A DNA stretch of 64,000 nt from Asparagopsis taxiformis (taxonomy: Eukaryota; Rhodophyta; Florideophyceae; Bonnemaisoniales; Bonnemaisoniaceae), in NCBI GenBank assembly GCA_030407315.1, contig JALQPE010001750.1:16638-80637 (forward strand), given 5' to 3'. The notes under the pieces were generated by a model. The model did not search any database. It worked only from the letters and a program-made list of their open reading frames with translations, and had not been told where the DNA came from. Below are positions 25,198 through 64,000 of this stretch, piece after piece. The position numbers and the translations under genes were made by a program. The first letter of the stretch is position 1, and every line of letters starts with the position of its first letter.

Positions 25198-25252
25198 CCT
25201 CATATGAGGTCATTTGACCTCATATGAGGCCACTTGTCCGATAGACACTAGA
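25198..25252 (-). repeat. Right inverted terminal repeat of the piggyBac element
   Basis: This mirrors the left end: CCTCATATGAGG at 25198-25209 and 25218-25229, then the complement of the 18-bp terminal sequence at 25235-25252. The palindrome spacing is 20 bp here versus 22 bp on the left. Confidence 0.85.
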
Positions 25253-25558
25253 CTCCAGACCTTCTTCCACCACTGGCCTCATCGTCACTGTAATTACTGT
25301 AGGCAATTTACAGTATAGCTTAGCTTACTGTAGCTCGATACCTTACAGTAAACGTCCGCTTGCAGTCATCCCATCTCTCGCCTTCTCTTCGGTCGTCTCT
25401 CCGAGCACCCTGCGTAGTCGCGGTCGTCGATTTGTTGAGATCTTGCTTACGTGGGCCTTTCGGTACCTGGCGGGTGATCCATTGAGATTGCCAAGACGAA
25501 ACAGACCGCAACGAAGTCGACTGGGGGGACTGCCCCACGGCGGGAGCTAGCTGCTTGA
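25253..25558. other. Spacer right of the piggyBac element
   Basis: This 306-bp stretch has no gene. It contains repeated TTACAGT/ACTGTA strings (25290-25350) and a G-run at about 25521. It may be LTR remnant of Gypsy A, but no clear TG...CA ends were found. Confidence 0.3.
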
Positions 25559-29740: not shown

Positions 29741-29836
29741 CTTACCGACATCTTAGCCGACCGGCGACACACCGAAACCACTCAAGAAGAGTAAACTCGT
29801 CGTTAGACGTGAGCTCATTGAACAAGAGTAGAAGTG

Positions 29837-33931: not shown

Positions 33932-34778
33932 TGTGGGGGTTAAGGCACAACTTGGGAGGTGTTCCGGTCGAAGGTGCCTCCGAATCCCTGAGGTGGGGAG
34001 CGGAGGGTAGTTTATATAGACTAGGTGGTAGCTCTAGGAGGGGTAAAATGAAGGGTAACTACGAGGACCTACAAGGAGTAGGTATCGGGAGATCAACCAA
34101 TAGGAGAGGAGAATGGGAGATATTGTTGGTGGTGGCGGATCTGGAAACGGTCATGAGGAGAGTGTGACACAGAGGGCCACGTGTCCGAGTCCAGCAATGT
34201 CACACGTGTCCGAGTCCAGCAATGTCACACGTGTAAGAGTCTAGCAATGTCACACGTGTAAGAGTCTAGCAATGTCACACGTGTAAGAGGTTGGCAGGAA
34301 CCCCTGACACGTGGAAACCTGGAACCGGGCGCGACCGGGCCCCGCAGGGCGGCTTGCAGTGTAAGCTTATATTTCTTACATGTAAGCTTACAGTTGAAAT
34401 TTCATTGAAAAACGAGGTTTCCGTCAGTTACAGTTGTAAGTTACCTGTCATATGGGCGTATAGGTGTAAGTAACCCTGTAAGTGGGGCGAAAGTGGCTGA
34501 AAAAGCCATGTAATCTTGTAAGTAACCGTGGCAGTCACATGACAGGTGTTGTAAGTGTATCATAACATGTAAGTAGCCTACTCAAGTGTCTCCTAGGTGG
34601 TGTAAGGTATATGGAAAGCTGTAAGTAGCCTCGTAGGAGTGGTTACTGTAAGCTTCCCTTGTAGTTGGGAGCTTTGGTCTCTGTGGAATTTTATTATCTT
34701 ATTGGTTGGTCGGGGTATGGTGTTGGAAGAACAGGAATCTAGTGTTTACCATGAGGTCTAGAGGACTGATCCCTTACA
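33932..34778 (+). mobile_element. Solo LTR inserted in the Gypsy B RNase H gene
   Basis: An 847-bp stretch starting TGTGGGGGTTAAGG and ending GATCCCTTACA (TGT...ACA ends), flanked by the direct 5-bp repeat GCTAT at 33927-33931 and 34779-34783. Removing it with one GCTAT rejoins the RNase H reading frame as compared with Gypsy C. It carries a TATATA string at 34013-34018, a 25-bp tandem array and many TGTAAG motifs, and has no coding capacity. Its sequence differs from the LTRs of Gypsy B and C, so it marks another LTR family. Confidence 0.9.
34175..34297 (+). repeat. 25-bp tandem repeat in the solo LTR
   Basis: Three full copies (34198-34222, 34223-34247, 34248-34272) and two partial ones of a unit built on TGTCACACGTGT followed by CCGAGTCCAGCAA or AAGAGTCTAGCAA. 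Each unit contains CACGTG, the E-box/G-box palindrome, so the array may be a promoter or enhancer of the LTR. Confidence 0.85.
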
Positions 34779-39925: not shown

Positions 39926-40480
39926 TGCGCGAACCGACGTGCGAACTCAGCGAAGAACAGAAACTCCGCTTGGGGAAACACGGGACGCCAAACCTATCGC
40001 TTACTCTAATTCTTCTTTTATCCGTTCGTCGTGCGCGACAGCGAGGGCGATTGACGCGTGCGCGCGTATCGCTATCCCGGAAGCGGTGCTATAGCCTCTC
40101 TGGTTTGTATAACTACCCTACCTCTACTACGACGATTCGCAGCGCGGAACGACGCGATCGACGACGCAGCGCGTGCGCGCGCTAGTTCGCAACCCTAACG
40201 CGGGTTCGGCGGTGCCGAAAATATTGGGTTCGCAGACGATCGAGACCCGTCTTTGCGCGTTCCGAGCGAGGAAGAAGCCCTCCTGCGAGCGAACTCGTCC
40301 CCCTCACCCCTACTACGCGCGCCCGATACGCAGACAATTTTCGGGAAGCGCTTCCCTTTTTACTTGCCAATTTTTCGACGCGCCGACGCGAGATTTTGAC
40401 GCGCGCCGAATTCCCCTTTCTCCTTCCCCATCATCCCTTTTTCCCTTTTCCCTAGGCGACGATCGAACGCGACCGCGCCG

Positions 40481-42517
40481 ATGGATCCCCCTACGCGCGA
40501 GCGATCGAACGCGCCGACCGAACCGCCGCCAGTCGCGTCGCAAACGCACGCAGTCGACGCCCTGGTCGCTTCACACATCCCTGACCCTACCGCTTCCCCG
40601 TGGCCGCCGCTACCGACGCAAGCGCTCGCGAGCATTGACGACGACGCGCAAACGTCCGACGATGGCGCCGCAACGAAGCGCGAGGCCGAGTTCCGCGTTT
40701 CCGACGTGCACGCTACGCCGTCCGCAACGCTTCCGAGCTTGGTTCGACAAGTAGTGGACGACCCTACGTTCCAATGCATGCTCCAGGCAGAAGTCCGAGC
40801 GGCTGTGGACCGCGCCATCAAGGGCCAATCACGTGGATTGACGGCTCAGATGAGGGCGCAAGTCCACAACCTAATCGTCACTACGATGGACTCCCGCGAG
40901 GAGCACAATACCGACCGCGCGAGCGCCGTTACGCGCGAAAACCGAACGCGAACCACAGCGCGCGTGACTCCGACGAACTACGCGCGTAACGCGGATCCCG
41001 AAGGATGGCTGGAACTGGCGCGCCAGGATCTGTCATTCGACGATCACCCGCGCTCGAATAGCGACGACGGACCCGCGCACCCCGGGCTGGTAGAGATCCA
41101 GCCGTTGAACGAGCTGTTCACGCGCGCGCTTTCGTACCGCACGTATCGCTTGCGAAATACGGACCGCGCGTTTAATCGGGACATCGCGAGCGAACTGGCC
41201 AACACCGCGAAGATGGTGCGCCATTCGATGCAAGGAGAGAATTTCACGGGCACTGACGGAATCGCGGTACTATCGTTTCTGAAGTACTTCAAGAGCGCAT
41301 GCGACGACACCGGCGTATCCGAAGGCGCAGCGCTTCCGATTCTCAAGTATTTCCTGGCCGACGAAGCGCGCGACACGTTCCAAACGTACGTGGGACGAAC
41401 GTTCCGAGGAGCGCGCGCGGGCGTCGATTCGATTACGTGCTACGCGGAAGCCGTTCAGTGGCTCTTACTAACCTACGCGCGCGAAGGCGACGTTGCGCAA
41501 GCGTACCGCGACGTGGCGCAACAAACGCAAGACCCGAAGGAAACCGAAACGCAATTCGCTACGCGATTACGACGACGAGCGCTGCGCTGCGGCGACGCGT
41601 TTAGCGAGCGAACGCTTGTTTCTATTTTCGTCGATGGTCTACGCCCCTACGCGCAACACCTCGTGCGGGACGCGCTGTCTCGTGACCCGCGGCGATACAC
41701 CTTTCGAGAGCTAGTCTCTATGGCGCAGAGCCACGGGGACACGCACCGAGCGATGACGCCGACAACGAGCGCGCGACCGCTACTGCGACGAACGCCTGCG
41801 CTCTACGTAGACGAGGACGAGACACCGATGATGCAAGCTCTGACCGTGGGGCACACCCCGCCATCAGGCTTCTCATCGCCAAACGTCTCAACCTCCGCCG
41901 CGACACCGCACGCTCCGCGCGAACGGAAGTTCTCGACTCCGAGCCCCATGCGAAGTCCGACCTCGCTTGGCACTCCTTCGTCGAATTACCGCACGCCACG
42001 CTCGCGCGACGCCTCGCCCGCCGACCGCTCACGACGCACTGCGCATACCGACGACCGGGAACGCGAACGCGCGGGACCGTACACGGCGCACATACCGCGC
42101 GCGACTTACCCACCGCCCATCGTGAGGCAGACGGCACCGGCCGACACGTCTCGCACGGCAGCGTTCCGATGCCTGTTATGCAGGAAGTTCGGGCACCCGA
42201 TGGTGAATTGTCCACTGCTCTCGTCCGAGCAGCAGGCCGCGATTCGCGAAATGCATAGCCACGCGCGCCTAACGCCCGAAGAACTGAACCTGCAGCGCAA
42301 CGTTCAGGTCTTCGAAGTCTCTGCGCACGCCGACGCGAACGAGAGCGAGCGACAGCGCGTCGACGGCAACGAGCGAACGCGCGAAAACGAGGGCGCACGC
42401 GAGCGTGAGCGCGAAAACGATCGGACGCGCGAATACGACGCGCATGACGGCGAGCAGCTCACGCCCCACTCGGTTCGTTTTGCAGAAGACCCGGGAAACG
42501 CCTACGAGGAGCCGTAG
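40481..42517 (+). CDS. gag: Gypsy C Gag polyprotein
   Basis: 678 aa, ATG at 40481 after a leader of about 550 bases. The capsid-like region at about residues 230-420 parallels Gypsy B Gag (GTDGIAVLSFLKYFKSACDD, PILKYFLADEARDTF, IFVDGLRPYAQHLV). The zinc knuckle CLLCRKFGHPMVNC lies near residue 565. The C-terminal 80 residues are a repetitive stretch of E, R, N and D (RERERENDRTREYDAHD). pol follows in the frame one base back, as in Gypsy B, so a -1 frameshift or re-initiation is needed to make pol. Confidence 0.92.
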   Translation: MDPPTRERSNAPTEPPPVASQTHAVDALVASHIPDPTASPWPPLPTQALASIDDDAQTSDDGAATKREAEFRVSDVHATPSATLPSLVRQVVDDPTFQCMLQAEVRAAVDRAIKGQSRGLTAQMRAQVHNLIVTTMDSREEHNTDRASAVTRENRTRTTARVTPTNYARNADPEGWLELARQDLSFDDHPRSNSDDGPAHPGLVEIQPLNELFTRALSYRTYRLRNTDRAFNRDIASELANTAKMVRHSMQGENFTGTDGIAVLSFLKYFKSACDDTGVSEGAALPILKYFLADEARDTFQTYVGRTFRGARAGVDSITCYAEAVQWLLLTYAREGDVAQAYRDVAQQTQDPKETETQFATRLRRRALRCGDAFSERTLVSIFVDGLRPYAQHLVRDALSRDPRRYTFRELVSMAQSHGDTHRAMTPTTSARPLLRRTPALYVDEDETPMMQALTVGHTPPSGFSSPNVSTSAATPHAPRERKFSTPSPMRSPTSLGTPSSNYRTPRSRDASPADRSRRTAHTDDRERERAGPYTAHIPRATYPPPIVRQTAPADTSRTAAFRCLLCRKFGHPMVNCPLLSSEQQAAIREMHSHARLTPEELNLQRNVQVFEVSAHADANESERQRVDGNERTRENEGARERERENDRTREYDAHDGEQLTPHSVRFAEDPGNAYEEP

Positions 42518-42609
42518 CGGGTGGGCCGGCTCCTCCTCACTCAACGGATACGCGACGCGCGACGACGCAACCACCGCGCGAAAAACCGCCTCCGTTACCA
42601 CCCGAAACA

Positions 42610-45600
42610 GTGGTCCTGTTTCAGACCCCTACCGCGAACTACAAACTCGAGACCCGCGTCGGGTATAATCAACGCACGGCCACCGCGGTGACCGCCGTGC
42701 TTGATACTGGCGCAGGCCCGAGCCTCATTCGCGAAAACGTACTAGGCGCCGACTGGAAGCGCCACGCTACGCCGCCGACGCTGCGCTGCGCGATTATCGA
42801 CGCGAACGGACGACGCCTCGCGCCAAACGCGTCGCTGCGACTTAGCGTTTTTCTAGGTGCCCGAGCGCATCTCCAAACCTTTTTGGTGATGCCACGCTTA
42901 TCCGTCCCATGTATCTTGGGAGCAGACTTCATCGACCGCGTAGTCGAAATTATCTACACTGGACCGCAGCGCGCGTTGCGAACCCGCTATGGCGACCACG
43001 TCCCGATGCTTCCGCGTACGCCGACGAAACCGCGCCGCGCGCCGACCGCGAAGACGACCCGACCCACAAGCTTCGCGCCTATTCGCGCTGCGCGCCGCAC
43101 ATCGATTCCGCCGAACGCGTCGCGAGCGATCGACGTTACCACGAGCGCTGAAGGGCGCTGCATCATAGTTCCCGCGACTAACCTCTACGCGCAGAAACTA
43201 CTCCGTTTAACCAACGGGGAGACGCTGGTTCGAAGGAATGTACCCTTCCGAGTACAGGTACACAACGCTGGCACTCGTCTACAAGTATTGCCCAAAGGCA
43301 TGAAGGTAGGCACCGCCGTGCCCAACCCCGTGGGATGTCTACAAGTCGCTCAGGAAGCGCCGGACCCGCAAGACCGACCGCCCGACGACGCGACGCGACG
43401 CAACGTTACGACACCGCCGGACCCGCGCGAGACCGACGAAACTGCGAGCGCGACGCCGTCTTGGGAAGAACTCTTACGCGCGACGCTACGCGACGAGCGA
43501 GTAGACGACGACCTGCACGCGGAAATTATCGAGATGCTACGAAAGCATGAGCGCATGTGGAGCGGCACGCTGGGAGCCATTCACGCGACGGAGCACCGCA
43601 TCGAGCTGGTTCCGGGGGCGACCCCCGTGAACCAACCGCCGTATCGCGCCGGACACGCGTCGCGCGAGATTATCCGTACGCAAGTGGAGAAGATGCTCCG
43701 CGCTGGGGTAATCGAACCCGCTACGTCGGAATGGGCGAGCCCGGTCGTGGTCGTACCTAAGAAGGACGGGACCTCCCGCTTCTGCATTGACTACCGCCGC
43801 TTGAACGCCGCCACCGTGAAGGACGCGTACCCGATTCCGCGCATGGACGATTGCGTCGATTCGCTCGGTTACGCGACAGTTTTCACGACGCTGGACTGCA
43901 ACTCGGGATACTGGCAAATCCCAGTGGCGCACGCCGACCGCGATAAGACTACGTTTACGTCGCACGTCGGTACGTACCGCTTTCGCCGCATGCCTTTCGG
44001 ACTTTCGAACGCGCCCGCGACGTTTCAGCGCGCGCTCGACATTTTGCTCGCGAACGTGAAGTGGCAACATTGCCTTGTCTACCTGGATGACGTAATCATC
44101 TTCTCCGCCGACGTAAACGCGCACGTGCACCACGTCGACGAGATACTGGGAATCCTCGGACGCGCAGGCGTTTCGCTGAAATTCGCGAAGACCGAGTTCT
44201 TCAGGCGCTCGGTGGACTACCTGGGACATACTATTTCGCCTGGAAAGCTCTCCGTACCGACGACGAAGTGCGACGCGCTGCGCGATGCGACGTACCCGAC
44301 GACGAAGACGCAGCTGAGAAGTTTCCTAGGAACTTGCAATGTATACCGCCGATTCGTCGAAAAATTCGCGTTCGTCGCGGCGCCGCTTACGCAGTTGCTA
44401 AAGAAGGACCAAGGAGACAACTTACCCGCGCCGACGCCGGAGCAAACGCGCGCGTTCGAATCATTGCGACAAGCGATGTTGTCTCCGCCAATCCTCCGTC
44501 TACCGCGCGAAGGACACCCGTATGTGCTCGATACAGACGCGTCGCAAGGGCAAATCGGATGCGCGCTACTTCAGCTAGACGCGGACGACGACGTACTACA
44601 TCCAGTCGGATACTGGTCGCGCACGCTTAACGACGCAGAGCGCAACTATTCGACGACGGAACGCGAGTGCCTCGCTGTCGTATGGGCAGTTTTGCTATTA
44701 CGCGCATATTTGGAAGGACGGAAGTTCACGGTTCGCACCGACCATAATTCGTTGCGTTGGATCCTGAACATGACGTCCGCGGAAGGACGACTCGCGCGCT
44801 GGAGATTGCGACTCGCCGAGTTCGAATTCGACGTCGAATACAAAAAGGGAAAACGCCACGTTATCGCCGACGCGCTCTCGCGAATGGCCACGCGAAGCTG
44901 CGACGAGACGGAAATACCGGACGAGATACCCTGCTTCGGCGCCGCGAACATCGTCGAACCGCACGCGAACGCATGCGACCGAACCGACGCTGCGCTATTA
45001 TGCGACTACGCAGAATACTACCCGAGCTTGGCCTGCCTACTGGCAACTCGGTCGTGTATCGAGCCGCCCGTATCCACTGACGAGTGGATTCGCGAACAGG
45101 CGACGGACGAATTCTGCCAGAACGCGAGACGCGACGTCGAAACCGCGCCGCGTTCACGCTTCCATCTGTCCCCCGACGGGATACTAATGAGGACCGCTCC
45201 GCTCGACGACGCGACGCAGATAGTTGTGCCCGAAGCGATAAAAGGACGTATTCTGCGAGCGAACCATTACGCGGTAACTGCAGGGCACCCGGGCGCGCGA
45301 CGCATGTACGACGCAATTCGACGCGCGTATTACTGGCCGATGATGAGCGTAGACGTCTACACCACGGTGAGACAATGCGATGCGTGCGCGCGCAACCGCG
45401 TTACGCAATATCGCCATACGAACGCCCTGAAGCTATTCCCCGCGACGCGCCCGCTCGAAGACGTCGCTATCGATATTCTGGGACCGCTGCCCGAGACCCC
45501 GCGCCAACGCCGCTTCGTACTCGTAATCGCCGATCGCTACAGCAAGCTCCGTAGACTCATCGCGCTCGGACGCGTATCCGCGCTCGCCGTCGCAAAAGCG

Positions 45601-46767
45601 TTTTGCAGAGATTGGGTCTTCGTTTACGGACCGCCGCGCACGCTACTTTCAGATAACGGACCGCAGTTCCGCTCGAAGTTGTTTCAGGAAACGTGCGCGC
45701 TAATGGGAACGCGTAACATATTCACGACTACCTATCACCCGCAGTCGAACGGGCAGGTCGAGCGTATGAACCGTACCATCGTCGCGACGCTGCGCCACTA
45801 CGTCGACGAAGAGCGAAAGAATTGGGACGAGCACCTAGACGCGCTGGCGTACGCATACAATCGCGCGATACACCGCTCGACGAATACGTCGCCGTTCGAA
45901 CTCACGCTCACGCGCTACCCCGTATCGCTGGGGACGGAGCAGGTCGACACGATTCGCAGCACGCCGTTCCTCCGCATGGAGTTTCTTGCGAAGCTATCCG
46001 ACGCGTACGCGCGCGCCGCGAACGCGCTGAAGAAAGCGCAAGCGAGATACAAACGCGACTTCGATCGCGGCGCACGCACGGTGAACAAGAGCATCAAAGT
46101 TGGCGACCAGGTATATCTGGACACTCGCGCGGGAGCGACGACCCGAACGAAGCGCGACGACGGAACGCGCCCTTCGAAGTTGGACTATCCCGTGTCGGGA
46201 CCCTTCCCGGTCACAAGCTGCCGCGGGCACACTTACGAAATCATAATCGACGGCGTGCCCGAACTCGTCAGCTCCGATCGGATTCGCCTAGCACCGCGCA
46301 ACGCGACGCGCGCGCCGGTTACGCCAAGCGGCGAAGAAGGGGTGACTGACGCGGAGGACACAAGCGACGCAGCGCGACGTGACGAACGCGTGCTTGATGA
46401 CGCACGCAAGGTCAATCCTGAAGCAGGATATGGAACGCGGGAGTTCATGATTGACAAATTGACGGCTGAAGGTGTCGACGACACCGGAGCGCCCGTATTC
46501 CGTGTACGCTGGAAGGGCTTCTCTCCGCGCGACGACACTTGGGAGCCCGAAAGTTCGTTACCCGCGCCCATCGTTGCCCGTTTCCGCCGCGACCGTAGAC
46601 GCTCCGCCTCTGAAAACACTGCGCGCAACACCGAGATTGACGCCTCGTCACCGCGCAATCGTAGAAAGCGACCGACACGCGGCGACGCCCCACGTATAAC
46701 GCCACCAACCCGCGCGAGCGCGCGCATCGCGAGTCGACGAGCGCCTTCGCATGCACCGCGCAACTGA
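42610..46767 (+). CDS. pol: Gypsy C Pol polyprotein with chromodomain
   Basis: 1385 codons with no stop; the frame is open further upstream overlapping gag and lacks an ATG near its start, so it is probably made by -1 frameshifting from gag. Domains: protease (LDTGAGPSLI, residue ~32; ILGADFID), reverse transcriptase (LVYLDDVIIFS, Tyr near 491), RNase H (VLDTDASQGQIGCALLQ, ~640), integrase with HHCC (HYAVTAGHPGARRMYD, CDACARN, ~885-935) and the DDE triad D955, D1015 and E1051 with the standard 35-residue gap between the last two, then a chromodomain at ~1276-1335 (FRVRWKGFSPRDDTWEPES). The chromodomain would guide integration to marked chromatin. All catalytic residues are present, so it may be functional. 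Confidence 0.94.
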   Translation: MVLFQTPTANYKLETRVGYNQRTATAVTAVLDTGAGPSLIRENVLGADWKRHATPPTLRCAIIDANGRRLAPNASLRLSVFLGARAHLQTFLVMPRLSVPCILGADFIDRVVEIIYTGPQRALRTRYGDHVPMLPRTPTKPRRAPTAKTTRPTSFAPIRAARRTSIPPNASRAIDVTTSAEGRCIIVPATNLYAQKLLRLTNGETLVRRNVPFRVQVHNAGTRLQVLPKGMKVGTAVPNPVGCLQVAQEAPDPQDRPPDDATRRNVTTPPDPRETDETASATPSWEELLRATLRDERVDDDLHAEIIEMLRKHERMWSGTLGAIHATEHRIELVPGATPVNQPPYRAGHASREIIRTQVEKMLRAGVIEPATSEWASPVVVVPKKDGTSRFCIDYRRLNAATVKDAYPIPRMDDCVDSLGYATVFTTLDCNSGYWQIPVAHADRDKTTFTSHVGTYRFRRMPFGLSNAPATFQRALDILLANVKWQHCLVYLDDVIIFSADVNAHVHHVDEILGILGRAGVSLKFAKTEFFRRSVDYLGHTISPGKLSVPTTKCDALRDATYPTTKTQLRSFLGTCNVYRRFVEKFAFVAAPLTQLLKKDQGDNLPAPTPEQTRAFESLRQAMLSPPILRLPREGHPYVLDTDASQGQIGCALLQLDADDDVLHPVGYWSRTLNDAERNYSTTERECLAVVWAVLLLRAYLEGRKFTVRTDHNSLRWILNMTSAEGRLARWRLRLAEFEFDVEYKKGKRHVIADALSRMATRSCDETEIPDEIPCFGAANIVEPHANACDRTDAALLCDYAEYYPSLACLLATRSCIEPPVSTDEWIREQATDEFCQNARRDVETAPRSRFHLSPDGILMRTAPLDDATQIVVPEAIKGRILRANHYAVTAGHPGARRMYDAIRRAYYWPMMSVDVYTTVRQCDACARNRVTQYRHTNALKLFPATRPLEDVAIDILGPLPETPRQRRFVLVIADRYSKLRRLIALGRVSALAVAKAFCRDWVFVYGPPRTLLSDNGPQFRSKLFQETCALMGTRNIFTTTYHPQSNGQVERMNRTIVATLRHYVDEERKNWDEHLDALAYAYNRAIHRSTNTSPFELTLTRYPVSLGTEQVDTIRSTPFLRMEFLAKLSDAYARAANALKKAQARYKRDFDRGARTVNKSIKVGDQVYLDTRAGATTRTKRDDGTRPSKLDYPVSGPFPVTSCRGHTYEIIIDGVPELVSSDRIRLAPRNATRAPVTPSGEEGVTDAEDTSDAARRDERVLDDARKVNPEAGYGTREFMIDKLTAEGVDDTGAPVFRVRWKGFSPRDDTWEPESSLPAPIVARFRRDRRRSASENTARNTEIDASSPRNRRKRPTRGDAPRITPPTRASARIASRRAPSHAPRN

Positions 46768-51673: not shown

Positions 51674-51837
51674 CGGGGGGAGTGTGGTGCAATTTAAGTT
51701 GGTCGATGGAACCGATGCGAGCGCGCGCGTTTACGTTAGTCCGCAAGCATCCGTTTGAGTTAGTTTAGTAAGCGAGCGTACGCGTGGCGCCTTGATTACG
51801 TGTCACGGAGCGTCAATGCGAGCGCGTGCGCGCGTAC
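51674..51837 (+). repeat. Polypurine tract and truncated 3' LTR of Gypsy C
   Basis: CGGGGGGAG at 51674-51682 directly precedes TGTGGTGC, the LTR start. The following 155 bp match 39096-39250 with one difference and then stop abruptly at 51837, where unrelated coding sequence begins. About 650 bp of LTR are missing. Purine-rich imperfect repeats (AGAAGGATGG family) lie just upstream at 51520-51600. Confidence 0.88.
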
Positions 51838-53541
51838 TCTCGGACTGGCTGCAGAAGAAGGGGAAGATTTACCATTTCATGTCCTGAGCACTTCCTTGGA
51901 AGCAGTGCAGGAAGAAGTACCGAAGACGGAAAACGGAGTTTCAGTTGTCCCAGCAATTTTTGACCCGTACCGTTCCGCAGTGATAGCAGCTGACCATCTA
52001 ATGTCTGGACTGGCACAAGATGTACTGAACGCTTGTATTTCAGCTGCCAGCCCACGAATTCGAGAGGTAGCTGAATTGCAAATTCTGGGCGCTCTGAAGA
52101 AGTTCAGGATGGGAAGGCAGAACCGTTTATTTGGAACCAACAATCTGCTTTCCATGAACATGAGTGACATATTCAGTGTGCTGCTGATAGCACCTATGGC
52201 ATTCGAAAACGCAGCTCGAATGATGGATGGGAAAGGGGAAGGTCATCGTGAAAAATTTGATGGGGCCGTCAAACTAGTAGTGGTGTTTCAGAAGCTGGTT
52301 TCGTGTATTAGTTTCATGCCCGTATGGTGGAAAGACGGTCCCCATGAAGTAGAGACGGCTGACGGAGAAGGTGCCAGGAATGAATACATTCTGGGAAGAA
52401 CTGTAGACTACGTGGAGACGTTAAATGAGTATTGTCGGAAAGTGAAGGGAGCAGGAGCACATTTGGACAAGCCTAATGTTCATCGTCTTGTCGAGTTTGT
52501 GTTCATACGCTTCCTGCCTACGGCTCTGTGAAGCACGTGCAGGAGCTTATATTCGAACGGATGCATCAGCCGCTGAAGAAAGGTGTGAGAATGTCCAATC
52601 ACCAAAGCGAACAGCTTTCAGCGCTGGAATTAGTTCTTGCGGATGACTGGCAGACGAGAGTGGCCATTGTTTTGCGCGAAATCGGCATGGAGCCACAACA
52701 TTGGTCCTCGTCCGAATGCTCTCAAATGGTCAACGTTCTTTCACAGGAGCTAGGGAGAGAAATAGATGTGGAAGACGAGGTAGTGAAAAACTGCTTCCAG
52801 GAACCGGTTCTCCAGCTTCTCTCCCAGCGTCGAGGAAAGATATTGTCGGCGGATGGTGAAATTGTGACATGGAGAGGGCATCGAGGTATATCTATTGACG
52901 AGGTCAAGGAGTACATGAATGGAAAATGTGATATGGCAGAGGGTGCTGTAGGTGTTTTCAAACGGTTCTTTACCGAAAGGTACGGAAGCGGAACAAGCGG
53001 GTGTGGAAAGTATGCCGAATGGGTGAGAAGAGTTTCTAGAAGCACTACGACAGAGTGGGGAAGGAAAACAGTGCAGAGGTCTGGCTCTCTAGAATCAGGA
53101 GCTATCATCCATGCTGTTTGCCCTGAACAGAGGATATGCGAGGATGGTGCAACTTCACAAGCGATTCTGTACCCGGCGTCTCGTCTCACATCAGAGATAA
53201 TGCGGGGAAGAATTAATTATGAACCGCGGTTTTTTATTGTTCTAGCGTTCTTTATCCTGAGGAACGAGAGTGCGAGAGATGAGCAAGGTACAGCTTATGG
53301 AGTTTGCCTGGGTTTGCAAAAAACTGATGAAGGAGTGTTCAAGGTCGAAGAGAGGCGACGAACAGTAATTGTGGAGATGAGTGAGGGAGTCACTGAGGTG
53401 TTTGGTATGCACTATTGCAATGGGAGTGTATGCGAATATGATGAGAACATGAGGGAGGTAAGGCACGGACCCGGACTGCTGGAGGGTGGAGAGATATATG
53501 CACTATGTAGGCGAGACGGATTTCCACCGAGGGCTGCATGA
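51838..53541 (+). pseudogene. Truncated, frameshifted transposase-like gene
   Basis: Protein-like sequence starts directly after the cut LTR, in the frame that stops at 52529-52531; the next frame continues to 53541. The switch occurs near 52515 in the middle of a motif (HRLVEFVFIRFLP, then YGSVKHVQELIFERMHQPLK), so a one-base change has broken a single gene. The N-terminal part is missing. The first half contains DPYRSAVIAADHLMSGLAQD and GALKKFRMGRQNRLFG. An Asp in ADHL and a Glu in ELIFERMHQ, separated by helical sequence, would suit the last two acidic residues of a DDE transposase related to the CACTA/Tnp2 type. That is pattern-based inference; I do not firmly recognise the family. The final 200 residues have no motif I know. 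Confidence 0.55.
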
Positions 53542-53661: not shown

Positions 53662-53975
53662 CTTACAGCAAAGTCATCGTTACGATGATTTTGCTGTAAG
53701 AAAACGTTTCCATTACAGTGGCCAAGAATTTTTTACCGGGTAAAAAAATCGTGGCAGCTGTAATGATTTGCTTTCTTACAGCAAAGTCATCGTAACGATG
53801 ACTTTGCTGTAAGGAACCGTTTCCTTGCAGTGGCCGAAGAATTTTTTACCGGGTAAAAAATCAGCAAGAAATTTTACCGGGTAAAAAAATTGTGGCCGCT
53901 GTAATGATTTGCTTTCTTACAGCAAAGTCATCGTTACGATGACTTTTTTGTAAGAAAACGTTTCATTACAGCAAA
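53662..53975. repeat. Palindrome array I
   Basis: Three copies of a 39-bp palindrome (P1) at 53662-53700, 53775-53813 (exact) and 53916-53954, each two arms of CTTACAGCAAAGTCATCGT around one A/T base. Between them lie copies of a second palindrome (P2, for example 53711-53765) with arms CATTACAG-GGCCA and centre TTTTTACCSGGTAAAAA. The first P1 copy has one arm mismatch and the third two. The array lies between the transposase-like pseudogene and the ParB-like gene. Confidence 0.95.
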
Positions 53976-54784: not shown

Positions 54785-56296
54785 ATGGGAGACAATAGTA
54801 TCATGAATACTACAGCGGAGAAGAGCAATTCTCCTTCTGCTGAAGAGAAAAGCGTCACTATTGCTCAGTACAGCTCTTCTAAAGTGCAAGTTGATCCTCG
54901 CAAAGTGAAATTTCCGACAGTGACCTCCCGTTTGGTGCGACCGGGTCGTGTAAACGAACTGGCCAGCATTTTCATGGATAGAGGTTTCTCTACCACTGGA
55001 ACTATGATTACAGTCTGCAAAATGGAAGATAACGAAGGAGACGAGTTTTACTGCATCGATGGCTCTCATCGCATAGCTGCTCTGCAACTATGCCTGGAGA
55101 AGTACTCAGGAAAGAACAGGGATTCCTTGGAATTGGTTTGGGTACAACAGTTGATTGCGCCGAACGGGCGTCTAATTTTCGATGCGCTGGAGGTTCTGAA
55201 ACTGTCTCTCGAAGCCAATATACAAACTCACGATGTCGCTTCTGTGAGCATTGCCGACAATGTGTGTGCGGTCATAGAGTTTCTCAGGTTTTCCAACCAG
55301 ATGGATCTTCCTGTTGTCCGGCTTATTCCTATTCTGAAAGAAGTGAGCTATATTCTGCCGTCCGACAGGAACCGTTCGGAGAACTCGTATAGGCAGTACA
55401 TCAACATTGCGAAGGGGTTCAATCGCACAGACAGCGTTGCTTTCGTGTACTGGAGCTCTATCCCTAGCGTTTACAATGCTTTGGATAGGAACAGAGAAAT
55501 CGAGGATGCAAGAACCGAGGGAAGAGATCCGGACTTTTCTCGAATTGACTCTGCCGATATGTACGGGTGCGTGCTCGATCTTGTCAATAACGCAATATTC
55601 CGCAATGGCACGGACGGACGCGGGACGCGCGATAAGGAGTGGTTCCAGTGGTTTGTGCTCGAGATGACAGCGTCGTGGACAAGGATGAGGAGGAAGAGAG
55701 GACTTGTCAGAAATATCGGAAGCGGAAGTCCGTTCACGATGCGCACTTGGCTACTGGCTCTGTTGGCCATCTATGATATGGCAGAGGTCGTCCGCAAATG
55801 GTTGAACTCTGCAACGATGGAGGAATTCGTGCGAACGGATTTGGCAGCAGAAAACGCGAAGGAGGTCGGGGATAATGATCATCGCATTGGAGAGCGCATT
55901 GTATTCGTCCTTGTCGACTTTCATGACGACGTGGTAGACAGAAGCAGTCTGAGAACCAAGAACGGGATGTTTACAAACAGTTTTTACGACAAACTGGAAT
56001 ATGCTACCGGGACAAAGGCAATGCAGGAGACGAAAGCGGAGGAGGAGAGGGAACGGAATCGCATGACCCCCGGAGAAATAGAAAAAGCACTTGTTGATGG
56101 CGCCAAAGCAGAAGACGAAGAAGCACCTACTGCCGCAGAACAGGGAAATAATTCTACAGAGAAGGAAACGGTGGAAACTTCTGGTCCTGTTCAAGCAGAA
56201 GAAGGAGTATCTGCCGAAGCCCAAGTAGAGCAGGAAGTTTCTGCTGTTGTGGAGGAAGAACAGGAATTACTCCAAATGTGGTGGCTGAAGAAGTGA
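54785..56296 (+). CDS. ParB/sulfiredoxin-fold domain protein (unit 1, first part)
   Basis: 503 aa from the ATG at 54785. Residues about 45-110 match the ParB-like fold: SRLVRPGRVNELASIFMDRG (the Rx-helix that opens ParB domains), a strand ending FYCIDGSHRIAAL with D92-G93-S94-H95-R96 in place of the ParB GERR/GxHR box. In bacteria this fold gives ParB CTPases, nucleases, sulfiredoxins and a serine kinase. Beyond it are blocks conserved with the second copy at 59830-60790: THDVASVSIADNVCAVIEF, AFVYWSSIP and FVLEMTASWTRMRRKRGL. The last 90 residues are a charged linker (EEERERNRMTPGEIE). The frame ends at 56296, but linker-like sequence goes on in the next frames towards the dioxygenase, so the two parts were probably one protein. 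Flanked by palindrome arrays. Confidence 0.68.
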   Translation: MGDNSIMNTTAEKSNSPSAEEKSVTIAQYSSSKVQVDPRKVKFPTVTSRLVRPGRVNELASIFMDRGFSTTGTMITVCKMEDNEGDEFYCIDGSHRIAALQLCLEKYSGKNRDSLELVWVQQLIAPNGRLIFDALEVLKLSLEANIQTHDVASVSIADNVCAVIEFLRFSNQMDLPVVRLIPILKEVSYILPSDRNRSENSYRQYINIAKGFNRTDSVAFVYWSSIPSVYNALDRNREIEDARTEGRDPDFSRIDSADMYGCVLDLVNNAIFRNGTDGRGTRDKEWFQWFVLEMTASWTRMRRKRGLVRNIGSGSPFTMRTWLLALLAIYDMAEVVRKWLNSATMEEFVRTDLAAENAKEVGDNDHRIGERIVFVLVDFHDDVVDRSSLRTKNGMFTNSFYDKLEYATGTKAMQETKAEEERERNRMTPGEIEKALVDGAKAEDEEAPTAAEQGNNSTEKETVETSGPVQAEEGVSAEAQVEQEVSAVVEEEQELLQMWWLKK

Positions 56297-57905
56297 TTCC
56301 TGCTGTCGCGACGAAAGCAATAGAAGAGGCACCTCTGAGCACCCCGAAAGAAGCAGAAGACCGTCCTGCCGCAGCAAAAGGGGAGGACAGGAACGTCCTG
56401 CCACGCGTCTTGCAGCAGCTGAGAAGAGGGAAGCAGAACGTCTTGCTGTTCTCCAAAAAGAACAGGAACGTCTTTCAGCTTCAAGGGCAGAGCGGGAAAG
56501 TCGTGCCAGGGATAATTCGCCGGGAAGGATTGTCAGAGAAGATCTTCCTCAGGGAAGGAAACAAAGCGGCGATACGCAAAGTCTGGATATCAACTTGGAC
56601 AATAGTGGTCGCATGGACATAGACACGCCTGGACAACAAGCTGGAGATGCGCAGAACCGCTCTGTGATATTGAAACTTCGAATCAGGACACCAGAAACTT
56701 ACAGCACTAGCCCGGCCGAAGTGGACAAGGAGAATTCGGGAAGAAGCAGGAGTTCTGGTGGAAGCGGCGATGAAAACGAGTCCAGGTTGCATAAGAAGCG
56801 AAGAAGGGAAGATACTAGCGCGAAGTTTTCTGAGCCCAATACGCCGGATGACAACATTGAGATTGGGCCTCCCCGGGAAAAGAAGAGTAGAGTCAATGCA
56901 AGAAAACGAACGACTGGAGAAGAAGCACCACTCTTCACTGACGAGCAAGAAAACTCCCTTCCAGACCGCACATTCGCAGAGGAGATACCTGAGAAGCTGC
57001 CTTTATGCGTTCCTTCCAACTCGAGAATGAAGTATTATATCACAGAAGAAGACATTGATACAATCCGGACGGAGATAATGGAAGCAGCTGCAGGCTACTC
57101 TACTTTGGTATGTCCCCTCGGTTCTTGTGAAAGCCAACAATACTTCAGCTACCAGAGAAGAATGATCGACGAGCTTGGTTACGTGGTGTTGCAAGACATT
57201 TTCTCTTCTACTACAGTGGGAGCAGCTACGCACGAGTTATTCACACAGATGGCCAGCACATTCCAAGGTACTACAAGTGGCTCGAGTGCAAGTCAGAAGA
57301 ACCCGTGGAAACCACTTCGACCGAAAGACAGCACTGGTGTATTCAAGACGGACCGGAAAAGCATCTGCGATGACCTTGAGCAAGAAAGCGCGCGGCAGTA
57401 CAGGAACAAGCTGATTCTGGAGCTAGGTAAGGCGATTTGTGCGGAGAACCTGAAGCTCGGGTTTGGAAGAGAAGAAGCGGTGGTCTTTCCAGAAACGGGT
57501 CTTCGTCTGATTTTGACCGCAGAAGGTAGTCAGGAGCAACTTATGCATACCGATGTTCCCGTCCGTGAGGGAACTGGAACTGGTCCTCTCAACTCGCCAT
57601 CATATTTCATGATGGCTGCTGGTGCGGATGGGTTCATCATTCGTATCGCCAAGTTCAGCCATGTGTGCCTAAGTCATCCAGCGAAAGACAAGTACCGCGT
57701 GCCAGTGACGAATGTGCGCATCCCACCGTATTCCCTGCTTGTATGCCGAACGGACGTGTATCACGGAGGAATGGGATTCGCGGAGGGTCGTTCTTCGGTG
57801 AGGTACCCGCATCCTATCCGGTCCCATCTATCACTGCGAACTTCCAGGGAGAAGTTGCTACAGCCTCCCTTCAATGTCAACTACTGGGAGCGTTTAGATA
57901 TCTGA
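56297..57905 (+). CDS. 2-oxoglutarate/Fe(II) dioxygenase-like protein (unit 1, second part)
   Basis: From the first in-frame ATG at 56613 the product has 430 aa; the same frame upstream (from about 56420) also reads as charged linker (EKREAERLAVLQKEQERL), which suggests fusion with the ParB-like part through one or two frame changes at about 56270-56420. Residues about 136-215 and 255-410 form the domain. H312 and D314 in LMHTDVP, H384 in DVYHGGMGF and R397 in SSVRYP fit the HxD...H...R iron and 2-oxoglutarate site, with SPSYFMMAAGADGF between. Such enzymes oxidise DNA or RNA bases, proteins or small molecules. A basic, serine-rich stretch (HKKRRRED) near residue 60 resembles a nuclear signal. 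Substrate unknown; pairing with a ParB-like domain points to DNA. Confidence 0.65.
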
Positions 57906-58155
57906 TGAAATTAGTTCTTAATAGCATTCTATGGCAGGCATCAAGGCCGCCTTCAAGTAAACGATGAAAGTTAGGCTAGTACATGACGTTTGCGTATGTA
58001 GACGGGTCAGGAGATATACAATACTCAATTTAATATGAGAAGGGGAGGAAACTATGGCGGGCACTACTAGAATAGAACAAGGTAATATCGCAGTCGTCTT
58101 TGGTTACAACATTGAGGTGAGGAAGGCTTACAGATTATGCAGTTTCGCTGGGGTG

Positions 58156-58260
58156 CTGACAGCAAAGTCATCGTAACGATGACTTTGCTGCAAGCATCCC
58201 GGGTAAACGGCTTCGGCTGTAAGCGGTTGGGAGTTTCGTCCGTCTCCCACCTGGGAAGGT
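58156..58260. repeat. Single P1 palindrome with unit-end sequence
   Basis: A P1 copy at 58156-58194 with two changed bases near its tips is followed by GTAAACGGCTTCGGCTGTAA and GGGAGTTTCGTCC. The same strings occur in reverse orientation at about 63366-63400, just outside array III, so the two sites are inverted relative to each other around unit 2. Confidence 0.85.
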
Positions 58261-58761
58261 GAGAAGGGAAGTGTGGAGCCGGGAACATCGTACAACGATG
58301 GTTTGGACGACTGTTGACGGTTCTGGGGAGCACGCTGCGTCGTGCAAGCCTGGTTTGCGCTGGCTGCACTACCTGGTATTGAACGGTTCTGTGCGCAAAG
58401 TTTACTCATGAAGGAGGTAGGGTGTTGTGTACCACACCAACCATAGTTACTAACATTTGCAGTGTACTCTAGTGATGTAATTATTATTCTAGTTTCTAAC
58501 TATACAATGATACTAAGTAAGTCAGATGTGCACAGAGCATGGTCTAAGCCTAGCACGGTAGAGAAAGATGGAAGAAAGATTGAAGGGTAGGCATGCAGAG
58601 GTATGAAGGCAGCAGTATGTGTAGACTATGGCAGTGGTAAGAAAATATTTCATGCACCAAAGGGTGGGCAGAGTGACATTAGAGACATGGTGTGTAGGGG
58701 AAGGTAGGTGGAGATGATGAAGGAGGACAACAGAAAGGAGAGCGAGGGTTGAGACCAACGG
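58261..58761. other. Spacer between units 1 and 2
   Basis: About 500 bp without coding sequence; open frames here are short and lack features. It separates the single palindrome from array II. Confidence 0.4.
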
Positions 58762-59085
58762 CTTACAGATGGAGCAGTTTACCAGGGATGCTTACAGCAA
58801 AGTCATCGTTACGATGACTTTGCTGTAAGGAAAGGTTTCATTACAGTGGCCATGATTTCTTTACCCGGTAAAAAAATTCCTGGCCGCTGTAATGAAAACG
58901 TTTTCTTACAGCAAAGTCATCGTAACGATGACTTTGCTGTCAGGAAACAAAACATTACAGTAGCCATGATTTCTTTACCCGGAAAAAAAATCCTGGCCTC
59001 TGTAATGAAACGTTTCCTTACAGCAAAGTCATCGTAACGATGGCTTTGCTGTAAGGATCCTTGGTAAATTGCCTGAGCTGTAATT
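58762..59085. repeat. Palindrome array II
   Basis: Three P1 copies at 58791-58829 (exact), 58905-58943 and 59017-59055, spaced 112-114 bp, with P2 palindromes between them (58839-58894 and about 58951-59006). The outer ends are themselves inverted: CTTACAG plus TTTACCAGGGATG on the left and CCTTGGTAAATT plus GAGCTGTAA on the right, so the whole 320-bp block can fold on itself. It lies about 200 bp before the start of unit 2. Confidence 0.95.
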
Positions 59086-59288
59086 GTCGTACAACGAAAA
59101 GTGATGTGGAAGGTTCGGATTGGTCAACCGCTGAATATCATAACCAGGGTGTATACTAATAGGAATATGTCAGTTCTCTGAGTTTCGCCTATCTTACTCA
59201 GCTTACGCAGCAAAACAGCTTGTCGTTCAGATCTTCTTCTCTCTTTCTCAATCTTTCACTCTTCGTTTGTCAATCACTCATCAAAACA

Positions 59289-62200
59289 ATGGCTCAACAA
59301 TCCCCCAACGCTTTCGACCGCCAGGTGCGCTCTGCCAGCCGCCGTGACAACGATTCTCCCACTCCTTCTCCCTCTCCTTCTCCTTCTCTGGCCCCCCTGT
59401 CCCCATGGACGTTTGCGAAGCTGCTGCAGCGCTGACCCAGCTCAGCCCAGCACCTAAGCCCGTCCCCTCCCCCCCTTCCGCTTCCGATCCCGCGGTTGTC
59501 CCGACAATCGACGCTGGCGTTCCCGCAACTCCGCTTCCGGCTCAATCTGCCGAAGCGGCGCCAGCCGTCGAGGGATCTGGTGCTCCTCTGCCTAGCTCGC
59601 CTGCTCCGGACATGATCATCGCGTCCGGCAGCGACTTGGCAGAGGATGCGGAGAAGGTCGATGATCACAACGCTCGTGACATCGTACCGAACAAGCCTCT
59701 CCGCAGCACCAGGCTGGCCTACCCTGGCACAGTGCCCATCCCGGTGGATGTGGACTATGACATAAGTCCGGAGAGCTGCCGAAACATTCCAGTCTTCATT
59801 TCCCCCTGGATGTTTCTCCTCCGGCAGTCGTGTCCAGGGTGGTCAGGCCGCATCGCGTTGATGAGTTGAAGAAAACGTTTCTCACTCAGGGATTTTCCGT
59901 GATTGCTTCACGCGTGTCCGTCTGCGAGGTGATTGATTCCAATGCCAAAGTCCGACTGCAATACGTCGATGGATCTCACCGAGTGACCGCGTTGAAGGCC
60001 ATTCTCGAGTCGGCTGGACCTGCTCCTGCGAAGGACAGTCCAGAGTGGGAGGAGTTTGTCAAGTCTGACATCTACCGTCGCTTTGGAACTATTCCAGTCG
60101 ACTTTCTCCTCCCACCGACTCGGCTTGGCCGGGATGTCTTCTGCTCCGAAGAAGTACTCCCGCTTTCACGGCTGATGAACTTCCACACCCACAATGTCAG
60201 CGAGGTAACAGTTGCTGACAATGTGTGCTCTGTGATGGAGTTCATCAATATCCACCGCCTGGGAAAGAAGAAGATCGAGCCGACCGTTCAGTACATTAAA
60301 GAACGGAAAGCGCTGAGCTGGATTCGTCCGAGACAGCTCATGCGCTACGTCTCCATCGCCCGAGGTTTCAAGACCATTGAAAGCCCTGCTTTCAAGTACT
60401 GGTCGAGCATCCCGAACAGGCCGGAGTTCGTGCAGTTCTTTCGACCGAGGATCTGGCTGGTTGTACGGTGAACTTGTTGTTCAATGGGTCGTTCAGGAGT
60501 GCTCCGGATGTGCAGAAGTGTTTCATCCTGGAGATGACGGCGCGCTACACTTGTAGCCGTCGGTCGGCCGGGCTGAAACCGTACTCGGTTGGTACCATTG
60601 GGCAGGAATGGATTGCTGGTTTGTTGGAAATCTTCGGGTACGTGAAGGAGGTGGCCGAGTACTGGAACGTGTCGGATGTGTTGAGGATGCTGGATGGGTC
60701 AATTCCCAGCGTGGGTGACCCGAGCAAGAGCTTCGACATTCGCTCGCGCGTTGTCGAAGTTCTTGCTCAGATGGTCCCCAAGAAGGGGTGCTGGGCAGAC
60801 TTCCGTCCCAAGGAAGGCCCCCCGATGGTTACAAGTCCGAGAACATTTTTCCCCGTAAGAAGTCTGTCTTCGGAAGGACGCCAGGAAAATGCTCCTGCGC
60901 GTCACTGGGTACCGCGACATGAAATGCGGAAACGCTTTCACGCGATGTACCCAGACATCCCACATGCTGCGCTCCCAGCCACATGTGGTGATGATGCCCC
61001 CATCCCTTCCTCTTCCAATTCCTTGCCCATCCCTTCATCCTCCATCCCTTTGCCCCCACCACCTCAACTGGAATCTTCCAGCAATTCCGAGGTTGCCCCT
61101 GTTCCTCTCTCTACCCCTGCCGTGTCGGCATCCTCCCCTGCGGTGACCCCGGTCAAGCCGACTGCGCGTGGTCCCCAGGATGGCAGCGAACGCTCTGGTC
61201 CAGTTTCCCACGCCGGGACTGGTACCCCCAACCGTCCTGTCCAAGCCGCGCAGGAGCAGGTCTCACCGGCTTCGCAGCCTGAGCCTGCGACTCCGGCTGC
61301 CGAGCAGCACCCTGCTGCTCCGGCCCCCGCTGTCGAAGCTTCCCGTTCTGCATCTGCTAGCAGTTCGGGAAGCTCCAGCGATGACAGTTTCGTCCCTTCA
61401 CCATCCGGTGGGGTTGGACAGAAGACGGTTGCGAGGATTTCGACGGAGGGCCCTACTCCCGAGAATGTGGTCGAGGGCAGCAGTGCGAAGGGCGGTGCAG
61501 ATCCTGACGAAGATGTCATTGAAGTCAGTGATTCTGCACCGCCCGGAGTGGAAACTTCTGGGAGGAAAGTGATTCCCAGAAGGAGTACCCGCCTGCAAGC
61601 GAGTCGTTCCGGTCGTGGTGGAACGGCGGGTGGTGCTGTGGAGGTCGTCGAGCTGGAGAGCGCCCCCGAGGATGCGGGTGAAAACTCCATCCTCGGGAAG
61701 CGTAACTTGGAAGCCGCTTCTGCGACGCCCGAGCCTTCTACCAAAAAGAGAAGGCTCGGTGAGACTTCATCAAGTCGTCGTCAAAGAAATCCAAGTCGGC
61801 TTCCCGAGGTCGCTCTCGGGAGCCGGTTCTCCAGTTCGACGACGCCCAGGAGAATCCCATTCCCGACAGTATCGTCGATGAGAATGTGGCCGCCGTTCTC
61901 CCCAGCGCAATTGCGTCTGGCAGCCGGATGAAGTACTATATGGAAAGTACGACGGTGGAGACGGTTCGGGCGGAAATGAGGGCGGCAGCATTCCAGGTAG
62001 CTGCATCGCCGGGTGCTGAGGATACGGTGGTGGACAGGTACTTTGCGGTGAAGAAGGCATTGTTGGAAAACTTGGGGGTTATTGTTTTGGAACGCTTGTT
62101 GGAATCGTCCACGGCTGGGAGTGCGACGCATGAGCTGTTCGGTCACTTCGCTAGGCAGTTCCCGCTGGTTGAGGAGGTTGAAAAACCCTCCCAGCAGTCT

Positions 62201-63036
62201 GATTCTAACGATGACGACAGGGAGCCACAGGACGAGCCGCCAGCTTTCGCAAAGCCCGGCTTCGATCCTTCGCCGTGGCAGTTCATCCACAACGTGGGTG
62301 ATGCGAAGGACCGCATCGATGGTGGTCGGGCGCCTCTCTCTGCCGCGGCGTGAGTTGTGCGACAAGTTGGAGGAGGGGAATTTGGAGATGTACAAGAACA
62401 AGTTGGTGGCAGAGCTTGCTCTTGGTGTTTGTGCGGAGTTCTTGAAGTTGGGAATGGAGGGTGATGATCCTGTCTTCTTCCCGAAGACAGGATGCGGCTG
62501 TTCTTACAGCAGATGGGGCTGCGGACCAGGATGGGCACACGGACTTCAAGGTATCAACGAGTCGTGTTGCAGGACCTACCGAGTCTCCATCATATTTCAT
62601 GATGTCGAGCGGAGCAGATGGATTCTCTATAGTAGCTGCCCCTTATAGTCATGTATGCCTGGCCAATCCGGACGCCGATATGTGGAAGGTTCCCATTCAT
62701 AGGCTGTATGTGCCACCCTATTCCGTATTGGTTGGTCGCGGTGACCTTTACCATTACGGGGTCGGCTTCAAGCGCGGAGATATTCCTGCGGGCGAAAAAG
62801 TGGTCTATGGCCTGCCCACGCGCGGCCACATTACTGAAGACGGAGAAGGACGTCCTCACGGACCACATCACACCGTCGAATATTACAAGTACGAAGGAGC
62901 AATAGATAGCATATCAGAAGTATTAAAACCTATACTACTGTTCCCTGCTATAAAGCTCTGTCTTTCTCATCTCAACATGTATCTTAGCCCACTTTTCAAT
63001 CTCATCTATACATCTGTCCTTCATCTCATAGTTTAG
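59289..63036 (+). pseudogene. Second ParB-like/2OG-dioxygenase gene, frame-disrupted
   Basis: A diverged copy of unit 1 spread over several frames: N-terminus MAQQSPNAFDRQVRSASRRD (59289), serine/proline-rich stretch (59405-59780), ParB-like core (SRVVRPHRVDELKKTFLTQG, YVDGSHRVTAL; 59810-60440), the conserved blocks THNVSEVTVADNVCSVMEF and AFKYWSSIP, then FILEMTARYTCSRRSAGL (60468 on), a 350-residue disordered linker with STKKRRLG, and the dioxygenase (SRMKYYMESTTVETV at about 61920; GHTDF, ESPSYFMMSSGADGF and DLYHYGVGF at about 62530-62765). Frame changes fall near 59400, 59800, 60460, 61890, 62350 and 62490. The iron-binding HxD and H are still present. Here ParB-like region, linker and dioxygenase follow each other without any gap, which supports one ancestral polypeptide. 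Unspliced introns are an alternative to decay for some frame changes. Confidence 0.75.
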
Positions 63037-63377: not shown

Positions 63378-63720
63378 GCTTACAGCCGAAGCCGTTACCA
63401 GGGTTCCTTACAGCAAAGTCATCGTAACGATGACTTTGCTGTAAGGAACCGTTCCTTGCAGTGGCCAAAGAATTTTTTACCGGGTAAAAATCAGCAAGAA
63501 ATTTTACCGGGTAAAAAATTGTGGCCGCTGTAATGATTTGCTTTCTTACAGCAAAGTCATCGTTACGATGACTTTGCTGTAAGAAAACGTTTCATTACAG
63601 CGGCCACAATTTTTTTACCCGGTAAAGAAATCATGGCTGCTGTAATGATTTGTTTCTTACAGCAAAGTCATCGTAACGATGACTTTGCTGTCAGCACCGC
63701 CGGAACTGCCAAAGCTGTAA
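63378..63720. repeat. Palindrome array III
   Basis: Three P1 copies at 63407-63445 (exact), 63545-63583 (exact) and 63656-63694 (one change), with P2 palindromes between, such as 63593-63647. The outer ends are inverted: GCTTACAGCCGAAGCCGTTA on the left and GCCAAAGCTGTAAGC on the right. Same layout as arrays I and II. Confidence 0.95.
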
Positions 63721-64000
63721 GCAGTCTGGCTTCACCTCTCCCCCATTTCTCACTCCGCCTTCAGCACCCAGCCTCTCTGGTGACGACTGACGCCTTTCGT
63801 TTCCCCCCTCACGCCCCCTCTCGCAATGAAATACTCGTCTATTACCACGATAGGCTACTCGTACTGCCGCCTTAATTTTCCTCTACACACACCCTCCCAT
63901 CCGTCTCTTCCGTACTACGATCTAGGCTATCCTACCTACGATTATAGTGTATAGTGAGTAGCTAGAGTCCTACTTATTGACGATATAGTGCACCGGAACC
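63721..64000. other. Window end
   Basis: No gene is recognised in the last 280 bases. Confidence 0.4.

Follow-up and report, generated by a model that had tools for sequence, protein, structure and literature searches.

A 64,000-nucleotide stretch of the Asparagopsis taxiformis genome (contig JALQPE010001750.1 of assembly GCA_030407315.1, forward-strand positions 16,638 to 80,637; here, the window) contains two paralogous plus-strand genes, which we termed PBD1 (54785 to 57905) and PBD2 (59289 to 62909, ends approximate), and our analysis places both among the cargo genes of a very large, high-copy DNA transposon that has CACTA-type ends (EnSpm/Plavaka group). Each product appears to combine a ParB-like domain, a charged linker, and a region resembling 2-oxoglutarate- and Fe(II)-dependent (2OG-Fe(II)) dioxygenases. 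A third gene of the element, PMS (a name coined, like the other two, in this analysis), encodes a ParB-like domain, a DNA methyltransferase, and a SET domain. We assign a probability of about 0.55 to the whole reading that ParB-like domains tether these writer and oxidizer enzymes to the element's own DNA. A sequence-only reading of the window had proposed that the two PBD genes form a self-targeted DNA modification system, and the presence of the PMS gene on the same element makes this proposal appear more plausible.

Searches of the 141.5-Mb assembly (3156 contigs, with the window forming the end of contig C1628) identified a 26,406-base copy of the element at C337:91920-118325, the right end of which coincides with the contig end. 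Phycobilisome linker domains matched 13 times (14 candidates) on 10 contigs of this assembly, and of 14 controls only Synechococcus gave a signal, which indicates that the genome is probably that of a red alga. The left terminus of this copy is CACTACGGTGTTGA and the right terminus is the inverse of CACTACGGTGTTGA, so that the element is bounded by terminal inverted repeats of the form 5'-CACTA...TAGTG-3'. The subterminal repeat GACAGTAAA occurs nine times in this copy (four at the left and five at the right), each time within 1 kb of an end, and 32 of the 56 occurrences of ACAGT also lie within 1 kb of an end. We derived the element layout from two longer loci, on C337 and C2584. The C2584 copy has the right end but lacks a left terminus, and an inverted copy adjoins it head to head; this pair (L030 and L010), with no left terminus between its members, represents either an inverted dimer or an assembly artifact.

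The element is highly repeated. With a 2216-base query from the start of the PBD1 unit, all 40 scored places, including the window's own, were 99 to 100% identical over the full length, far from what chance would give; these 40 were scored out of 848 first-look candidates. The genome contains at least 40 near-identical copies and probably hundreds, and the element was probably active recently. Allowing up to two mismatches, we found 564 + 542 left ends and 317 + 338 right ends genome-wide (backward control, 0), counts that do not equal the copy number of the element because another element type has the same left end. When 20 copies were fetched with their flanks, 19 extended left past the point at which the window copy breaks off (51833), with the remaining one (L027) starting at its own contig end, and the start of PBD2 was present in 15 and absent from the fetched part of L015, L017, L019, L021, and L026. 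Two of these, L017 (C214) and L021 (C2302), are rearranged, with the methylase gene close behind PBD1 in the same orientation, and are 100% identical to each other across the 3.2 kb compared. The idea of a mobile unit was thus borne out more strongly than proposed. A free-standing system or a pair of host genes was ruled out, as both units are part of one 26.4-kb element with six open reading frames (ORFs).

In the C337 copy, these ORFs encode a transposase-like protein (1267 amino acids, plus strand; full length in a sister copy at L042:70-3870), PBD1 (1086 amino acids, plus), PBD2 (1215 amino acids, plus), PMS (1155 amino acids, minus), a 453-amino-acid protein (element coordinates 22341-23699, plus), and a last protein of approximately 508 amino acids from the first Met (537 from stop to stop; 23981-25501, minus). 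Neither Pfam nor NCBIfam gave a match above cut-off for PBD1, PBD2, the transposase, or the 453-amino-acid ORF. By eye, we noted the blocks GDYPAV, CHIC, DKPNVH, and FERMH in the transposase-like protein but no clear H(3-4)H spacing; we take GDYPAV, CHIC, and FERMH to resemble blocks of CACTA transposases. A first idea that the transposase is of the KDZ type was abandoned because the ends are CACTA.

The window copy of the element is partial: it starts at 51833, with the left 4.8 kb gone, and breaks off at 64000, where the contig ends. It retains the left-truncated 3' part of the transposase-like gene (51833 to 53541, plus strand, 99.0% identity to the C337 copy), PBD1, and PBD2, followed by the continuation of the element from 63695 to 64000. 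Beyond this point, the C337 copy has PMS, the two further ORFs, and the right TAGTG terminus. Compared with C337, the transposase of the window copy carries a single frameshift and PBD1 carries two, whereas PBD2 shows 17 gap sites whose lengths are not multiples of three. Of these 20 frameshifting gaps, 19 are 1-nucleotide deletions, possibly read errors or decay. Introns or split genes were ruled out because PBD1 and PBD2 are each a single ORF in the C337 copy (L023:3663-6920 and L041:136-3780, respectively). The two units as originally read in the window therefore hold as paralogous architectures, but both genes are frameshifted there.

PBD1 and PBD2 are diverged copies of one architecture, as had been claimed from their sequences. 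The N-terminal ParB-like parts are identical at 113 of 334 residues (34%; E 6e-43), and the C-terminal 2OG-like parts are 35% identical. The two proteins agree fully in the motifs DGSHR, ADNVC, and YWSSIP and in the C-terminal H-x-D, H, and R, and they also contain the basic patches KKRRRED and KKRRLGE. Of 21 copies checked, 12 had PBD1 open from the start at window position 54785 (residue 47), the window copy not being one of these, and an upstream stop occurred at residue 8 in 10 of the 21, so that 54785 is the better start. We detected no PBD relative in viral contigs and no PBD2 match in phage records, and searches of PDB sequences with the PBD alignments gave no match or four chance-level ones.

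The ParB-like assignment, first made from motifs, was upheld by profile comparison. When we aligned an N-terminal profile of PBD1 and PBD2 with six PMS-type ParB domains by using hhalign, the two matched at 93.9% probability (E 1.5e-7; 88.0% in a local rerun), aligned on DGSHR/DGAHR, and controls remained at or below 0.1% for the reversed profile (0.1%) and 10 column-shuffled profiles and at or below 0.3% for eight other windows of the PMS alignment. All six PMS-type ParB domains matched PHROG 1033 (phrog_1033, "ParB-like partition protein"; best E 3.5e-6), which PBD1 matched at E 0.0066 and PBD2 did not match. The top PHROG line for the PBD1 N-terminal piece was phrog_30083, a family of unknown function (0.0023). 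The top Pfam line for this piece, SNRNP27 (E 0.0009), was under its own cut-off, and we took it as chance. In a structural model of PMS (mean predicted local distance difference test [pLDDT] score of 54.8, with 65 to 90 over residues 11 to 90), Foldseek matched the ParB family protein Noc (E 4.4e-3) as well as several phage ParB and ParB/Srx proteins in BFVD. VIA-align rows for PMS fell in the methylase part, with Noc not among them, and a PDB sequence search with the PMS ParB alignment alone gave four chance-level matches. PMS belongs to the ParB/Srx superfamily, with a DGxHR-type motif in an alpha/beta ParB domain, and motif and profile support placing PBD1 and PBD2 there as well. In window coordinates, the PBD1 ParB-like core spans 54884 to 55111, with DGSHR at approximately 55058 to 55072.

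The C-terminal region of the PBD proteins (56934 to 57902 for PBD1) is a candidate 2OG-Fe(II)-like dioxygenase domain by motif. H968-T-D970, H1040, and R1059 are invariant in PBD1 and PBD2 and follow the order HxD...H...R (HTD at approximately 57546 to 57554 and the second H at approximately 57762 to 57764), which is the order typical of 2OG-Fe(II) enzymes. Scans of this region, also when cut out alone, gave no match to a 2OG family from Pfam, PHROGs, or NCBIfam. The proposed dioxygenase-like domain was therefore sustained by its conserved motif but not by any profile library, and because no TET/JBP profile matched, we did not assign the region to the TET/JBP group.

PMS carries, behind its ParB-like N terminus, a PF01555 DNA methyltransferase domain (2.4e-16) and a SET domain (PF00856; 27.5 bits against a cut-off of 22.4). 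Among its relatives, P0003 to P0007 also exceeded the SET cut-off and P0008 gave no match. The methyltransferase domain has the motifs of the beta-class N6_N4 enzymes, DPPF/Y followed by FxGT, and is CcrM-like. In viral contigs, 15 loci matched PMS, all within residues 550 to 909 (the methylase region plus the segment preceding it), and 39 phage records matched, all in the methylase region among the matches listed. Phage or bacterial ParB-methylase fusions are a possible source of the methylase gene of the element. Another high-copy family of this genome (on C45, C142, C1579, and other contigs) encodes P0003, a ParB-methyltransferase-SET protein that is 43% identical to PMS and open in 40 of 40 scored copies.

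We next compared protein-coding variation among copies by counting unique variants relative to the C337 copy, in 15 copies for the PBD2 ParB region and in 20 each for the PBD1 regions and the transposase part. The ParB regions contained 28 synonymous and 3 nonsynonymous variants in PBD2 (site-corrected ratio of 0.03) and 3 and 2, respectively, in PBD1 (0.19). The PBD1 linker had 2 synonymous and 9 nonsynonymous variants (1.35), the PBD1 2OG region had 7 and 8 (0.34), and the 3' part of the transposase had 10 and 32 (0.94). The ParB-like regions therefore vary little in protein sequence, and the sampled transposase part is neutral. Counted per copy, PBD2 residues 100 to 400 had 96 synonymous variants and 1 nonsynonymous variant, far more synonymous variants than PBD1 in the same copies.

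The PBD genes are surrounded by arrays of a 39-base palindrome, P1, that is self-complementary at 38 of 39 positions in the 12 sites shown. The C337 copy has 17 P1 sites (up to two mismatches; reversed control, 0) in five clusters, which lie on either side of both PBD1 and PBD2 and extend to the 3' end of PMS; the termini and the last two ORFs have none nearby. A palindrome scan of the partial window copy found 10 P1 sites in the same intervals: an array between the transposase and PBD1 (53662 to 53954; P1 at 53662, 53775, and 53916, with a second palindrome, P2, between), a single site 3' of PBD1 (58156 to 58194; two mismatches), an array 5' of PBD2 (58791 to 59055; P1 at 58791, 58905, and 59017), and an array 3' of PBD2 (63407 to 63694; P1 at 63407, 63545, and 63656). 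Genome-wide, P1 was matched 9,235 times in forward and 9,275 times in reverse orientation (control, 0); these are largely the same sites because P1 reads nearly alike on both strands. The locus L058 (C21:13310-15195) has the same left end as the element, and its 1.9-kb stretch shares only the arrays with it (79 to 100% identity by blastn, with the better stretches at 95 to 100%). Since L058 shares the arrays and not the interior, the arrays are not confined to a single type of element, and cargo may be modular, with exchange taking place between the arrays. The palindromes could be either ParB binding sites or nested repeats.

In the reading that we favor, the shared ParB-like domain and the helical part behind it would bring PBD1, PBD2, and PMS to the element's own DNA, possibly at the palindrome arrays flanking the cargo genes. 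The PMS methyltransferase would then write a DNA mark, most likely N6-methyladenine (6mA), and its SET domain a histone mark, while the PBD dioxygenases would oxidize or remove the DNA mark on the element. With no C5 methyltransferase detected in the host, methyladenine of the element itself could be what they act on. The combined effect may be to keep the element expressed and mobile, or regulated, as a counter-silencing device. We are doubtful of the full version of this scheme, a complete epigenetic toolkit with a ParB-aimed 6mA and histone writer on one polypeptide and two ParB-aimed dioxygenases erasing or modifying that mark at the arrays in a host lacking C5 methylation.

Other explanations can be given for each part of this scheme. 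The palindrome arrays may be nested foldback insertions or insertions resembling miniature inverted-repeat transposable elements, with cargo cassettes swapped through the arrays and no binding role. This is a tentative but real contender, to which the thousands of P1 sites genome-wide, the arrays beside an otherwise unrelated stretch in L058, and the difference in P1 number between the partial window copy and C337 (10 versus 17) all lend weight. Against it, the sites are near-perfect dyads and surround the same genes in the window and C337 copies, which does not conflict with a binding role. The ParB-like domains might instead be active nickases or nucleoside triphosphatases (NTPases) that aid transposition or excision, with the dioxygenases as passengers or as enzymes acting on proteins by histone or transposase hydroxylation. 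GmrSD_N (E 0.051) and DndB (E 0.18), which appeared as weak Pfam lines for PBD1 at the DGSHR block, are conflict-system members of ParB/Srx and agree with such activity. We consider it unlikely, as a homologous ParB-like domain on both the methylase and the dioxygenases fits a shared targeting role and the PBD1 2OG-like region looks constrained.

A further proposal, that the dioxygenases erase host-made 5-methylcytosine (5mC) silencing marks as proposed for fungal transposon TET/JBP enzymes, has a precedent in the TET-bearing EnSpm, Plavaka, and KDZ elements of fungi, as far as the available portion of that report goes (PMC12730594). It seems quite improbable for A. taxiformis. We found no match to a C5 DNA methyltransferase domain in the assembly, a family detected in 10 of 14 controls, although an intron-split or unassembled gene could escape. 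The observed-to-expected CpG ratio was only mildly low in the element (0.86 versus 1.02 in the first 22 kb of the window), and the missing TET/JBP profile match also argues against this role. Among short palindromes in the C337 element, GATC occurred 49 times against 103 expected, TTAA at 0.19 of expectation, and GANTC at 0.78, with the GATC and TTAA depletion stronger than in the first 22 kb of the window; these counts point to no particular methylation target.

Several observations weigh against the preferred reading of ParB-tethered writers and oxidizers on a CACTA-type transposon. The AlphaFold2 model of PBD1, built from two sequences, had a mean pLDDT of 30 and did not confirm a dioxygenase fold. 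The Noc match to PMS was modest (target TM score of 0.33, rank 48, behind many methyltransferases), and ParB-like domains may be nucleases or NTPases rather than tethers. Palindrome binding by the ParB domain is a hypothesis. No PBD relative was found beyond the element's own protein, with approximately 8,000 candidates scored per search, and the transposase-like ORF lacked a Pfam match. With respect to variation, the PBD1 counts are small, the transposase coverage is partial, and the across-copy sampling of PBD2 covers no 2OG region. Moreover, whole PBD1 counted per copy is near neutral (89 nonsynonymous and 30 synonymous variants), and the PBD2 3' end, in two copies only, has more nonsynonymous than synonymous variants. 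Finally, the flanks of three element pairs on C44, C74, and C168 (27.2, 25.3, and 26.1 kb), drawn from contigs having both ends among the first 100 places listed per end, matched as a 3-bp target-site duplication in none of the three and as a 2-bp duplication in one; chimeric assembly of such long, nearly identical repeats might explain this.

For elements of this kind in the red alga Bostrychia, the wording used by Petroll in 2025 is reportedly "giant Plavaka." Giant EnSpm elements are on record for Chondrus (16 to 20 kb with four to five ORFs; PMC6431247) and Bostrychia (Petroll 2025, as cited in PMC12477816), and in the accessible parts of these sources they resemble our element in being CACTA-type, giant, and furnished with several accessory ORFs. 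ParB-methylase-like proteins are likewise reported from red algal transposons, and the 21.5-kb transposon Sola1-1_Ec32 of Ectocarpus encodes a 1104-amino-acid protein with a ParB-like domain and an N4C/N6A methyltransferase, for which self-marking was proposed (PMC12477816). That element shares a ParB-methylase as transposon cargo with ours, but it is of the Sola-1 superfamily in a brown alga, and the available text mentions no ParB-dioxygenase or SET gene. The fungal TET-bearing EnSpm, Plavaka, and KDZ transposons have CAC...GTG ends and a 2OG-Fe(II) enzyme, as the A. taxiformis element has such ends and a 2OG-Fe(II)-like gene. The portion of the source at hand further reports SET and TET/JBP genes on other transposons and a fungal transposon-related TET active on 6mA, and mentions no ParB domain, whereas the A. 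taxiformis element has no TET/JBP profile match and another host (PMC12730594). Phage and bacterial fusions place a ParB/Srx domain ahead of a DNA methyltransferase, the same order as in PMS, but they are prokaryotic and have no SET or dioxygenase domain described in the part of the report available (PMC5512222). In bdelloids, the N4CMT-SETDB1 loop ties a bacterial-type amino-methyltransferase to histone methylation in a eukaryote; unlike PMS, N4CMT is, by the accessible account, a host gene product with a chromodomain, linked to transposon silencing and not transposon borne (PMC8885841).

The claim that no eukaryotic system of this kind had been described thus stands only in part. Algal transposons encoding ParB fused to a DNA methylase have already been described, at least in the portion of PMC12477816 available, and neither a ParB-dioxygenase fusion nor this combination of genes turned up among the matches listed from the open-licence literature. 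Red algal giant EnSpm elements and ParB-methylases carried by transposons are already known, and the ParB-dioxygenase genes appear to be new as far as we have seen. If our reading is correct, algal selfish DNA would have used phage-type parts to assemble a DNA- and histone-modifying system aimed at itself, in which writer and oxidizer share one aiming domain, and the role of transposon-borne dioxygenases could be tested directly. With its many nearly identical copies and no detectable 5mC enzyme, this genome would be a clean setting in which to look for a mark that the element both makes and removes. The finding would extend the fungal examples to algae and offer a candidate targeting domain.

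Elsewhere in the window are two Ty3/gypsy-type long terminal repeat retroelements with integrase and chromodomain (29822 to 37336 and 40400 to 46764) and a PiggyBac-like transposase (22928 to 25168; DDE_Tnp_1_7, E 1.4e-46). Host-type genes include those for an arginine deiminase (5206 to 6597) and a tandem two-domain ArsA-type ATPase (16670 to 18973).

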